DNA of 6,080 nt from Ruminococcus sp. Lineage in GTDB: Bacteria > Bacillota > Clostridia > Oscillospirales > Ruminococcaceae. Positions within the stretch are counted from its first letter, which is position 1. Each line of letters starts with the position of its first letter. Of the stretch, positions 295-3,121 are shown one piece after another. The DNA lies in NCBI GenBank assembly GCA_017544125.1, contig JAFYET010000051.1, positions 1-6,080 of the forward strand, in the 5' to 3' direction. Both the position numbers and the translations under genes were made by a program. The notes beneath the pieces are model-generated. The model saw only the letters and a list, made by a program, of their open reading frames with translations, was not told the DNA's origin and did not search any database.

Positions 295-1221
295 ATGATA
301 TATGATAACATTTTAGAGGCAATGGGGCATACCCCCATGATACGCTTAAACCGTATGAACAAGCCCGGCAATGCGCAGATACTCGTGAAATTCGAGGGGC
401 TCAATGTGGGCGGCTCGGTCAAGACGAGAACGGCTTATAATATGATAAAGAACGCCGAAAAGGAAGGGCTTATCAATAAAGACACTGTCATAGTCGAGCC
501 TACCAGCGGCAATCAGGGAATAGGGCTCGCACTGGTGGGGGCTGTCAGAGGTTATAAGACAGTGATAATAATGCCCGACTCGGTGAGCGAGGAGAGGAGA
601 AAGCTCGTGACCCACTACGGCGCTGAGGTCATTCTTATCCACGATGACGGGGATATCGGCAAGTGCATACAGAAATGCGTTGACACAGCCCTTGAAATGG
701 CGGCGGCTGACCCCAATGTCTATGTGCCCCAGCAGTTTGAGAATATCAACAACATCTACGCCCATAAGTATAACACCGCCCTTGAAATACTCGAGCAGAC
801 CGCCTGCAAGATAGACGGCTTCTGCTCAGGCATAGGCACAGGCGGCACTATCACGGGAATAGGGGAGACATTAAGAAACCAGTACCCCGATATGGAGATA
901 TGGGCAGTTGAGCCCGAGCACGCAGCGATACTTGCAGGTGGCACTGTCGGCACTCACCTGCAAATGGGCATAGGCGACGGCATCATACCCAAGATACTCA
1001 ATACCGAAATTTATGACCACATACACATCGTCACAGACGATGACGCTATAACCACCGCCAAGCGCCTTGCCTCCGAGGAGGGGATAATGTGCGGCATATC
1101 AAGCGGCACCAACGTCGCTGCCGCCCTTAAAATGGCAGAAAAGCTCGGCGAGGGCAAGACGGTAGTGACTATCCTCCCCGACACGGCAGAACGCTATTTC
1201 TCGACACCGCTGTTTGGGTGA
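295..1221 (+). CDS. cysK: Cysteine synthase (O-acetylserine sulfhydrylase) family, PLP enzyme
   Basis: The 308-residue product matches the fold-type II PLP enzymes that replace the acetyl group of O-acetylserine with sulfide to give cysteine in the cytoplasm. Visible motifs in order: GHTPMIRLN near residues 11-19; GGSVKTR at 39-45, with Lys43 as the expected Schiff-base lysine; the substrate-binding loop TSGNQG at 70-75; the conserved PQQF at 145-148; the phosphate-binding loop GTGGT at 181-185; a GISSG segment; and a C-terminal ERYFST signature. The length is slightly below typical CysK. Two departures stand out: Gln74 replaces the usual Thr of TSGNTG, and the usual TTGPEI stretch reads YNTALEI. 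A role as a divergent cysteine synthase subgroup or a related beta-replacement enzyme (CysM- or CBS-like) is therefore possible. The ATG has a good ribosome binding site 9-10 bases upstream. No cysE or sulfur-transport gene is adjacent, and the gene appears monocistronic. Confidence 0.88.
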   Translation: MIYDNILEAMGHTPMIRLNRMNKPGNAQILVKFEGLNVGGSVKTRTAYNMIKNAEKEGLINKDTVIVEPTSGNQGIGLALVGAVRGYKTVIIMPDSVSEERRKLVTHYGAEVILIHDDGDIGKCIQKCVDTALEMAAADPNVYVPQQFENINNIYAHKYNTALEILEQTACKIDGFCSGIGTGGTITGIGETLRNQYPDMEIWAVEPEHAAILAGGTVGTHLQMGIGDGIIPKILNTEIYDHIHIVTDDDAITTAKRLASEEGIMCGISSGTNVAAALKMAEKLGEGKTVVTILPDTAERYFSTPLFG

Positions 1222-1248: not shown

Positions 1249-1301
1249 TAAGATAAATCGGAATTTAATCAATGCATAATTCATAATGCATAATGCATAA
1301 T
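1249..1301 (+). repeat. Left inverted-repeat arm of the MITE-like element
   Basis: The arm has an outer 19-base block (1249-1267), a 3-base linker and an inner 31-base block (1271-1301). The inner block is itself made of the short unit CATAAT(G/T) repeated about five times (as in AATGCATAATTCATAAT), so it combines a direct tandem repeat with an inverted repeat. Partner: 1429-1484. Confidence 0.8.
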
Positions 1302-1306
1302 GAAGG

Positions 1307-1324
1307 TGTCGGCTTGCGCCGACA
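1307..1324 (+). other. Perfect 7-bp hairpin competing with the candidate terminator
   Basis: TGTCGGC (1307-1313) and GCCGACA (1318-1324) form a perfect stem with the loop TTGC. The second strand is the one needed by the terminator stem at 1317-1350, because TGTCGGC occurs twice (1307 and 1343). The two structures exclude each other in RNA. Confidence 0.6.
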
Positions 1325-1358
1325 TATGGCCATTCGGCCTTCTGTCGGCGGCATTTTT
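1317..1358 (+). terminator. Candidate intrinsic terminator inside the MITE-like element
   Basis: CGCCGACA (1317-1324) pairs perfectly with TGTCGGCG (1343-1350). Inside that stem, GGCC (1328-1331) pairs with GGCC (1336-1339) around the loop ATTC. The stem is followed by GCATTTTT, with the T run at 1354-1358. This is the only terminator-like structure after the cysteine synthase gene, so it probably ends that transcript. Its 5' strand can instead pair with TGTCGGC at 1307-1313, so termination may be conditional. Confidence 0.5.
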
Positions 1359-1405
1359 CGCTTATCAAAGCAATTTCGTGGGAATAAAAGCCCGAATGGG
1401 CATCC

Positions 1406-1422
1406 GTCCTGCGTAGCAGGAC
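1406..1422. other. Perfect 7-bp hairpin in the right half of the element core
   Basis: GTCCTGC (1406-1412) pairs with GCAGGAC (1416-1422) around a 3-base loop. No T run follows, so it is not a terminator on the plus strand. Nearby, CCGAATGG (1392-1399) is the inverse of CCATTCGG (1330-1337). This allows a long-range 8-bp pairing that would bring the two halves of the core together inside the outer palindrome. Confidence 0.6.
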
Positions 1423-1428
1423 ACATCA

Positions 1429-1484
1429 ATTATGCATTATGAATTATGAATTATGCATTACTACGTAAATTCCCATTTATCTTA
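1429..1484 (-). repeat. Right inverted-repeat arm of the MITE-like element
   Basis: The inner block 1429-1459 and outer block 1466-1484 mirror the left arm (1249-1301), with one mismatch in each block and a 6-base linker here versus 3 on the left. The arm ends 9 bases before the AAAGGAG ribosome binding site (1494-1500) of the CotH gene, so any promoter or leader of that gene must lie in or pass through the element. Confidence 0.8.
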
Positions 1485-1507: not shown

Positions 1508-3121
1508 ATGAAACCAAAACTTATCCCCCTGCTGCTGTCTGCATTGCTGCTTGCGGGCTGCTCGAACAGCGGCTCGTCTTCACAGAGCGAGAGCTCATCA
1601 CAAAACAAAAGTGTAAGCTCATCACAGACCGAGAGCTCGTCACAGGCACAGGCTGCTGATGCTGATAAGTACGAGCTCGGCGATGTTATGCCCGTGCTCG
1701 CTATACAGACGGTCAGCACCGATAAAAAAGCCATAGACTTTGCCACAAAGCCCGTGGCACGCCATGTTGCACAAAGCATAGCAAGCTGGACACCCGGCTA
1801 TAAAATGCCCAAAGCCCCATACTATGAAGCCTGCACCGTTACTCTTACCGATAAGGGCGGAAGTACGCTCATCGACAGCGCACCTGCACAGGTCAAGGTC
1901 AGGGGCAACTGGACTACGACGTATAATAAAAAGCCCTACCGCATAAAGTTTGACGAGAAGCAGGCGATGCTCGGCCTTGCAGGCGGCGAGAAGTTCAAAA
2001 ACTGGCTGCTGCTTGCCGAGTATAAGGACGGCTCTATGCTCAGAAACAAATCAGCCCTTGCCATGGCAGATGAGATACTTGCTAAGGACGGGGTCTTCGC
2101 TTCTGATGCGGCGTTTGTCGAGGTGACTATAAACGGCAGCTACTTCGGCGTTTATCTGCTGTGCGAATACCCCCAGGCAAATAAGAACAGGATAGACATC
2201 ACCAAGCCGGAGGAGGGCTATGAGGGCACTGATATAGGCTACTTCCTTGAGTATGACGGCTACTATAATACCGAGGAGGATCTTAACGGCTTTAAGATCG
2301 GCTATAATAATGATGCTAAACTCACCCCCTATGACGGTGAGGGCGGCAAGAGGCAGTCATCGCCCCTGAGCGGCGGTCAGAACAAGGTGGGCATCTCGAT
2401 AAAGAGTGACATCTACTCGCAGGAGCAGCATGACTTCATAGCGGGCTTTGTTGATAATGTATATAATATAATGTACCACGCAGCATACGATAATAAGGCA
2501 TATGTCTTTAACGATGACTTTTCTGAAATAAAGGAAACCTCCGACATCACCCCCGAAGAGGCAGTAAGGCGTGTGGTCGATGTTGACTCGCTTGCCGATA
2601 TGTATATAGTCAGCGAGCTTACCTGCGATGCTGATATCTACTGGTCGAGCTTCTTTATGTATGCTGACTTCGGCGAGGGCGGCAGCAAAAAGCTCACCTT
2701 CGGCGACCCGTGGGACTTTGACTCGGGGCTTGGCAATAAAGACCGCTGTGCAAGCGGCGAGGGTTTCTATGCCGCAAATATAGTCTACGATGTTAACGAC
2801 AGATACGCCTCCGTCAACCCCTGGCTCACCGTGCTGATGTATCAGGACTGGTATACCGATATCATCAGGGATAAGTGGACAGCCGCCTACGATGACGGCG
2901 TTTTCGAGCGGGGCATACAGATGATAAAGGACGACACGGCGAACTTCGCCGCAGCCTTTGACCGCAACTATGAAAAGTGGGATAATATACGCCACAACGA
3001 GGCAGGCAACGAGCTTTGCCGTGCAGCAGCTGCCTGCAAGACACAGGCTGAGTGCGCCGAGTATCTTGCTTCCTGGCTCACCACCCGTGTTGAGTTTTTA
3101 AACGGGCAGTGGCATAAATGA
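1508..3121 (+). CDS. CotH kinase-domain lipoprotein
   Basis: The product has 537 residues. Residues 1-18 are a lipoprotein signal with the lipobox LAGC and Cys18 as the lipidated residue, so the protein should sit on the outer face of the membrane. Residues 19-50 are a low-complexity linker with four SSSQ units. The rest matches the CotH kinase family: VRGNW (131-135), KKPYRIKF (141-148), a WLLLAEYKDGSMLRNKSA block (166-183), VEVTINGSYFGVYLLCEY (204-221), a segment ending in YWSSFFMYAD near 378, and the WDFD motif at 402-405, whose aspartates probably bind metal by analogy with the kinase fold. A conserved WLTTRVEFLN-type tail closes it. CotH of Bacillus phosphorylates spore coat proteins; vegetative homologues in gut Firmicutes have mostly unknown substrates, so the target here is not known. 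ATG 1508 follows AAAGGAG at 7 bases. No clear promoter is visible between the MITE-like element and the start. No VTC or DUF4956 partner gene is adjacent. Confidence 0.88.
   Translation: MKPKLIPLLLSALLLAGCSNSGSSSQSESSSQNKSVSSSQTESSSQAQAADADKYELGDVMPVLAIQTVSTDKKAIDFATKPVARHVAQSIASWTPGYKMPKAPYYEACTVTLTDKGGSTLIDSAPAQVKVRGNWTTTYNKKPYRIKFDEKQAMLGLAGGEKFKNWLLLAEYKDGSMLRNKSALAMADEILAKDGVFASDAAFVEVTINGSYFGVYLLCEYPQANKNRIDITKPEEGYEGTDIGYFLEYDGYYNTEEDLNGFKIGYNNDAKLTPYDGEGGKRQSSPLSGGQNKVGISIKSDIYSQEQHDFIAGFVDNVYNIMYHAAYDNKAYVFNDDFSEIKETSDITPEEAVRRVVDVDSLADMYIVSELTCDADIYWSSFFMYADFGEGGSKKLTFGDPWDFDSGLGNKDRCASGEGFYAANIVYDVNDRYASVNPWLTVLMYQDWYTDIIRDKWTAAYDDGVFERGIQMIKDDTANFAAAFDRNYEKWDNIRHNEAGNELCRAAAACKTQAECAEYLASWLTTRVEFLNGQWHK

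Follow-up and report, generated by a model that had tools for sequence, protein, structure and literature searches.

The locus examined here raises the question of what kind of sequence occupies the 236 bases between a PLP enzyme gene and a CotH-domain gene in a Ruminococcus contig. The window, by which we mean the whole stretch of DNA analyzed, is the 6,080-base contig C380 of genome G000 (2.42 Mb, 398 contigs, 81.8% complete), and the product of its first gene is 100% identical over 307 residues to a protein of the rumen Ruminococcus RUG13257. The insert starts 27 bp past the PF00291 gene and ends 23 bp ahead of the CotH gene, and its parts, with the flanking genes, are as follows.

295..1221, plus strand: PLP enzyme gene (PF00291), read as cysteine-synthase type (cysK)
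1249-1484: the insert, 236 bases, between the PF00291 and CotH genes
1249..1267, plus strand: left outer arm, TAAGATAAATCGGAATTTA, a second outer shell, 18/19 complementary to 1466-1484
1271..1301, plus strand: left heptamer arm of AATGCAT/AATTCAT units
1307..1324, plus strand: left hairpin 1, TGTCGGC(TTGC)GCCGACA, outward-strand loop GCAA
1328..1339, plus strand: left hairpin 2, GGCC(ATTC)GGCC, GGCCATTCGGCC
1340..1389, no strand: core; in S23-bearing relatives the gene sits between the same hairpins
1390..1401, plus strand: right hairpin 2, GCCC(GAAT)GGGC, GCCCGAATGGGC
1406..1422, plus strand: right hairpin 1, GTCCTGC(GTA)GCAGGAC, GNA loop on the outward strand
1429..1459, minus strand: right heptamer arm, 30/31 complementary to the left arm; match to covariance model R1 (below) at C380:1400-1452
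1466..1484, minus strand: right outer arm, pairing with 1249-1267
1508..3121, plus strand: CotH-domain protein gene, PF08757 (cotH)

Anatomy of a composite insert

An earlier note on this DNA described two nested inverted-repeat blocks, the inner one also a tandem repeat, and both observations hold. The outer arms (1249-1267 and 1466-1484) are 19 nt long and match at 95% (18/19 complementary), and the inner arms (1271-1310 and 1420-1459) extend over 40 nt at 90% ungapped, with 30/31 positions complementary over the AATGCAT/AATTCAT heptamers (counted from the sequence). Two 7-bp hairpins reported in the core are likewise present, at 1307-1324 and 1406-1422. An 8-bp long-range pairing of 1330-1337 with 1392-1399 is real but was rejected as a separate feature: its partners are parts of the local hairpins GGCCATTCGGCC (1328-1339) and GCCCGAATGGGC (1390-1401), which form an inverted pair, and this second hairpin type recurs next to hairpin 1 in other copies.

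Fold energies bear out the impression that the insert is too ordered for ordinary spacer DNA, with z-scores against shuffled sequences of -11.3 and -12.5 for RNA and of -12.9 and -12.7 for the two strands as DNA; none of the 200 shuffles in any of these tests folded equally well. The window's list of open reading frames holds no ORF of 60 codons inside 1249-1484, and a mechanical minus-strand ORF (1099-1368) overlaps the insert's left part. The insert is composite, its outer block being present in only a few copies. Allowing up to 3 mismatches, the outer 19-bp motif matches G000 at 29 places, two of them in the window, and its reversed pattern at 2; the motif is absent from the ends of the S23 elements described below. 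This motif (GATAAATYGGAATTTR) was also seen to terminate other, longer mosaic elements, on C32, C130, C311, C365, and other contigs of G000.

Copies, empty sites, and variable ends in the genus

The earlier note had proposed a BLASTN search for further copies, their absence being what would speak against its reading, and 101 BLAST pieces of the insert were found in G000. Three further copies in this genome are 97%, 95%, and 99% identical (the last clipped by a contig end) and have unrelated flanks; the window's left hairpin 1 is identical in the copy on C191 (L029) and has loop TTGT in that on C313 (L030), and its right hairpin 1 recurs in the C191, C313, and C127 copies. Among 37 fetched G000 stretches, many more loci have the end module alone, with varying cores. 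This module comprises about four heptamers, TRAGGTG or similar, a GC hairpin, GGAT, and often a second hairpin. BLAST with the window's insert had located the G000 loci that supplied 55 ends for a covariance model (R1), and this model had matches in all seven genus genomes examined, with at least 145 ends in G000, 89 in G001, 12 in G002, 114 in G003, 1 in G004, 108 in G005, and 150 in G006. BLAST matches to the insert itself occurred in 10 of 41 relatives. An origin from a plasmid or phage was rejected, as neither the plasmid nor the phage collection gave a blastn match to the insert at E 1e-5.

Pairing of ends was followed in G005, where 105 of the 108 matches were used (those omitted being a single match on contig C1 and two of only 21 nt); 26 of these make 13 pairs within 700 bp, and the other 79 do not. 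These 105 AATGCAT-type ends are distributed very unevenly along the G005 chromosome (C2), with none at 1.154-2.104 Mb. This end-free stretch of 950 kb compares with a largest gap of 445 kb in 2,000 random draws and, because a dnaA-domain match lies at 3.10 Mb, the ends cluster on the origin side.

Relatives also provide the sites without insert for which the earlier note had called. The cysK-cotH spacer, 286 bp long in the window, measures 36 bp in L121 and 17 bp in G005 (L222), both without insert, and that of L119 holds other sequence instead; 80 loci with a PF00291 gene gave no BLAST match to the insert, and a CotH gene adjoins in only 3 of them. Unrelated inverted-repeat inserts (ACAAACCGGAGTTTG... 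and AACACCGCACGACC...) were observed in the L120 cysK-cotH spacer and in L295 (the L034 site of G002), and such unrelated inserts in the same spacers of other species suggest hot or permissive spacers.

For 12 further elements of G000, the two flanks were joined and searched against six genus genomes, and seven sites were inspected. Three element sites span 38, 12, and 9 bp in G004 vs 183, 162, and 185 bp in G000, the last being 25 bp in G002, and the L040 site is without the element in G001, G002, and G004. In G006, six of the seven sites hold an element, in one case only half of it, and the remaining one, the L040 site, holds a remnant. From this occupancy, insertions are polymorphic between species, and several are older than the split of G000 and G006. 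Target-site duplications and exact junctions were unreadable from the joined flanks, the spacers being too diverged to place junctions. By a rough count, no ORF of at least 80 codons runs across any of 18 complete G000 elements, and 11 of these lie between codirectional ORFs, with the nearest ORF more than 400 bp away on one side in 7 of the 18 and one element having no right-hand ORF.

The hairpins beside the arms differ in stem sequence between ends while pairing and loop type persist. All but one of the 55 G000 ends have a perfect stem of 5 bp or longer, the 54 stems comprising 22 distinct sequences, and in 42 of the 55 the stem reaches at least 7 bp, vs 23 of 11,000 shuffles. Unusually stable DNA hairpins follow the loop rules GNA, GNNA, and GNAB. 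Loops of these types occupy the outward strand in 50 of 54 ends and the opposite strand in none of them. Taking all arm classes in five genomes, where a hairpin accompanied 220 of 290 arms and repeated end sequences were removed before counting, 170 of 220 loops are of DNA type outward (92 GNA, 75 GNNA, and 3 GNAB); by class the fractions are 107/129, 28/38, and 26/33, with AATAGTG lowest (9/20). Counted as distinct stem-plus-loop pairs, DNA-type loops make up 85/124 outward vs 4/124 inward, and among hairpins distant from arms they occur on either strand in 10/48. At the orthologous L048 site, the left loop is GAA in G000, GTA in G006, and GCA in G005, the outer loop bases remaining constant, and the G006 stem has one mismatch. 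Separately, a small hairpin (approximately TAGCGTTTTCCGC...GCGGATAATGCGT) sits within some heptamer arms (L044:893-1104, L055, L059, and L283).

Period 7 stands out in the arms themselves: the stretches examined contain 64 (G000), 119 (G005), and 10 (G006) tandem arrays of this period, and 0 to 4 each at periods 5, 6, 8, 9, and 10. There are three outer-arm classes, AATGCAT, AACAGGT, and AACAGTT, and a fourth class, AATAGTG, often lies ~90 bp farther inside as an inner shell; the four share one architecture. Classes are mixed in 25 of 41 neighboring inward-facing arm pairs over 260 kb of G005. At the orthologous L035 and L048 sites, G005 has the same architecture with a different class on both ends, and its L036 site likewise has ends of another class, more decayed.

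Two further observations concern the arms. Nested shells occur in G005 at L210, L211, L215, L216, and L217, with AATAGTG ~90 bp inside AATGCAT, AACAGGT, or AACAGTT arms, and give the impression that the center is where elements grow or insert. By eye, insertion-sequence-like ends (GAACCTGT...) break heptamer arms at L218:7277-7329 and L210:4977-5026, and the arms may therefore be insertion targets.

Could such elements instead be structured RNA spacers that the host maintains in operons to stabilize or process mRNA, recombination having spread the copies? The strong fold and the position between genes would fit, as would one copy common to G000 and G005 between genes read as atpG and atpD, which differs at 4 or 5 of ~190 bases and has flanks 91% and 88% identical, and the exchange of one insert for another at the same spacer. 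However, relatives have the same spacers without insert, near-identical copies lie at unrelated loci, and the loops fit the DNA rules better, GNRA tetraloops (the RNA rule) accounting for 59/220. Of the three readings in the earlier note, structured RNA also finds no Rfam family at the gathering score on the insert, the best hit being a sub-threshold yeast snR82 (27.7 vs 60 bits), and a search of 12 element loci gave six matches (four tRNAs, skipping-rope, and L10 leader), all outside the mapped elements. We regard this explanation as improbable.

S23 genes between the same ends

A first lead came from a weak match in another family (L097 in G033), where the same arms surround a small ORF read as S23. 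The corresponding family, PF05635, has matches in 17 of the 41 relatives, with one to four genes per genome in the genus and none in G004. This last genome is 98% complete and has at least 1 end, vs at least 12 to at least 150 ends and 1 to 4 S23 genes in the other six, a correlation between ends and S23 that one genome carries. The clearest case is L300 of G006, in which AATGCAT arms, hairpin, GGAT, and, on the far side, hairpin 2 and hairpin 1 surround a PF05635 gene. R1 matches both of its ends (73.2 and 59.8 bits; E 3.2e-17 and 9.6e-14), the gene scores 103.9 bits against PF05635 (cut-off 33.8), and the protein matches PDB chain 2RLD (E 2.7e-42).

R1 matched both ends of L304 in G002 (30.8 and 21.8 bits) and both ends of L301 from another family (45.1 and 34.2 bits), the latter mostly over the arm and with the GC hairpin missing. 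In G005, S23 genes lie in AACAGGT (L299) and AACAGTT (L316) arms, which are also outer-arm classes of gene-less elements; junction and hairpins are similar, and R1 matched one hairpin part in each (19.8 and 22.8 bits). The sole PF05635 match in G000, which is 81.8% complete, lies among arrays of AAAGAAT/AATAATG type, not AATGCAT. S23 is the only gene found between such ends, ORF annotation having been confined to ends that are not far apart. Elsewhere in G005 (L390 and L391), S23 genes were observed directly downstream of sequences resembling tRNA 3' ends (CCA) and next to AT-rich heptamer palindromes.

Because the end module of the insert is shared with genus elements that enclose an S23 gene, we consider it likely to be a gene-less, non-autonomous, MITE-like member of the S23/intervening-sequence element family that would need help in trans for its movement. 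It also has inverted heptamer arrays at both ends and, because no S23 ORF lies inside it, is described as a gene-less member and not as an S23 element proper. The reading as a non-autonomous transposable element is thus the one of the earlier note's three that fares best, with dispersed copies, shared ends, empty sites, and a gene-bearing relative behind it. What goes beyond that note is the composite build, the S23-bearing parent-like element, and hairpins that vary in sequence yet stay paired.

Whether the insert might be an ordinary MITE, derived by internal deletion from a DDE-type insertion sequence with a transposase that recognizes the arms, deserves separate weighing. Like bacterial MITEs, it is short, non-coding, and multi-copy, has inverted ends, and is likely moved in trans. 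Unlike them, its family varies in end sequence at constant architecture, with four heptamer classes and 22 distinct stems in 54, and no target duplication was seen, the junctions being hard to place. Where the earlier note had suggested looking for a transposase with matching terminal repeats, a parent-like element with the same ends was found whose gene is S23, a protein with a putative role in mobility. The label MITE fits except that this partner is no transposase, and a conventional origin seems unlikely to us. The available text of a MITE review (PMC10969869) contains no heptamer, four helix, S23, or Ruminococcus; in the open-licence literature, the arm strings returned nothing beyond one human-gene paper, and MITE with Ruminococcus only feedlot microbiome work.

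Less probable still is a REP/BIME-type origin, in which a Y1 (RAYT-like) transposase would move the element by way of its hairpins in single-stranded form. The family resembles REP/BIME elements in its between-gene modular hairpin mosaics and its hairpins with stable-DNA loop types, possibly acting in single-stranded DNA, and Y1_Tnp matches exist in G000 (2), G005 (4), and G006 (1). However, its ends are heptamer arrays, and the Y1 search does not support the REP/BIME-like reading that the earlier note had allowed: across the seven genus genomes, two of them incomplete, there is no Y1 correlation, G001 and G003 (72% and 58% complete) having at least 89 and at least 114 ends without a Y1_Tnp match and G004 having one Y1_Tnp and at least 1 end. 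Inspection by eye around two Y1_Tnp genes found no link either, with no heptamers beside the gene at the G000 locus, and we hold this origin to be improbable.

Heptamers around S23 genes across the phylum

In a phylum sample, the PF05635 family was found in 59 of 299 genomes (50 above the cut-off). A set of 100 S23 loci was assembled from the 41 relatives (39 loci) and this sample (61 loci); 40 of them were hand-picked (9 from relatives and 31 from the phylum), mostly omitting weak fragments. The array test mostly took a nominal gene length of 315 bp and allowed the units of the two sides to differ by up to 2 bases. Inverted tandem arrays of period 7 flank the gene on both sides at 36 of 100 loci, in 29 of 58 genomes, and 64 loci are without paired arrays by this test; the figure is 0/100 at periods 5, 6, 8, 9, and 10, and 1/368 for paired heptamer arrays in control windows 700-900 bp away. 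The 36 loci comprise 32 distinct heptamers in 13 clusters at one mismatch, ranging from 14% to 86% G+C. In G094, a finished genome with five S23 matches, a 21-base heptamer probe with up to 3 mismatches gave 20 matches, all at its own element. The unit length thus appears fixed and the sequence rather free, since only period 7 occurs, the heptamers vary, and the G094 probe stays local.

Different heptamers were seen on S23 elements of one genome in G318 (L338, L362, and L366), G333 (L368 and L385), and G081 (L359 and L383). The GTCAGCA and AGTCAGG arrays that flank S23 genes in L330, L334, and L348 resemble simple repeats and are easily overlooked. A scan for period 7 may serve as a quick finder of S23 elements.

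That the arrays are polymerase-slippage products near unrelated hairpins, with the S23 link due to chance, is hardly credible: a repeat length of seven is common among bacteria according to the accessible part of PMC4679880, but arrays at S23 loci are inverted on both sides at period 7 only (36/100 vs 1/368), and the same hairpin module follows the heptamers in G006 and G005.

Relation to ribosomal intervening sequences and possible mechanism

The S23/intervening-sequence family to which we assign the insert is best compared with the intervening sequences (IVSs) of 23S rRNA that carry an S23 ORF. As far as the accessible text of PMC4990558 goes, these have tandem heptamers ahead of the ORF and complementary ends, RNase III cutting has been reported for them, and both their function and their origin have stayed unclear in the more than 25 years since they were discovered, transposition being no more than a hypothesis. 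Within the portions of this literature at hand, the likeness extends to complementary ends in a long stem, heptamers by the S23 gene, PF05635 itself, and a status as selfish elements of unknown mobility. In contrast, the insert has complementary ends but lies outside any 23S rRNA gene; its family occupies sites between protein genes (PF00291/CotH in the window), not rRNA helix 9, 25, or 45, and has heptamer arrays inverted at both ends, extra hairpins by the arms, and mostly gene-less copies. The TAACTGA repeats of Beggiatoaceae and cyanobacteria, as presented in the accessible portion of PMC4679880, are also tandem heptamers between genes with unexplained spread, and their unit resembles the TAACTGT seen in the insert family, but no inverted partner array with a hairpin module is described there.

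A structure alignment suggests homology of Avd, a protein of diversity-generating retroelements, to PF05635 (PMC10053308, as far as its accessible text shows), and the S23 protein is probably a relative of Avd. We propose that this four-helix-bundle protein takes part in copying or insertion and that S23 or its relatives could mobilize gene-less copies in trans; the hairpins of the outward strand may act as single-stranded DNA at some step, and matched arms could be accounted for if one of them were copied, across the hairpin, from its partner. In a transcript, the arms would pair into a long stem for RNase III cutting, and insertion between genes would cost little because RNase III would cut that stem. 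S23 could also be a passenger.

A wider reading, which we advance tentatively, is that S23 genes form the core of a widespread, unrecognized class of mobile elements that, whenever they insert, construct inverted heptamer arms of their own; ribosomal IVSs would be the special case that landed in rRNA, and gene-less copies would multiply between genes with hairpins tuned to folding as single-stranded DNA. It is conceivable, at a similarly guarded level, that under this wider reading the period is always seven and the heptamer sequence private to each element.

Together, these results make it likely that the insert is a mobile copy, lacking the gene, of a selfish element for which the rRNA genes of bacteria are the best-known home. 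A family that lies between genes, with or without a gene of its own, at sites that are occupied in some genomes and empty in others, and under a 7-bp, sequence-independent rule, renders the question of IVS origin directly testable. S23 together with inverted heptamers provides a search signature that is independent of end-sequence similarity, and the family points to a possible function for PF05635, a large uncharacterized protein family probably related to the Avd proteins of retroelements.
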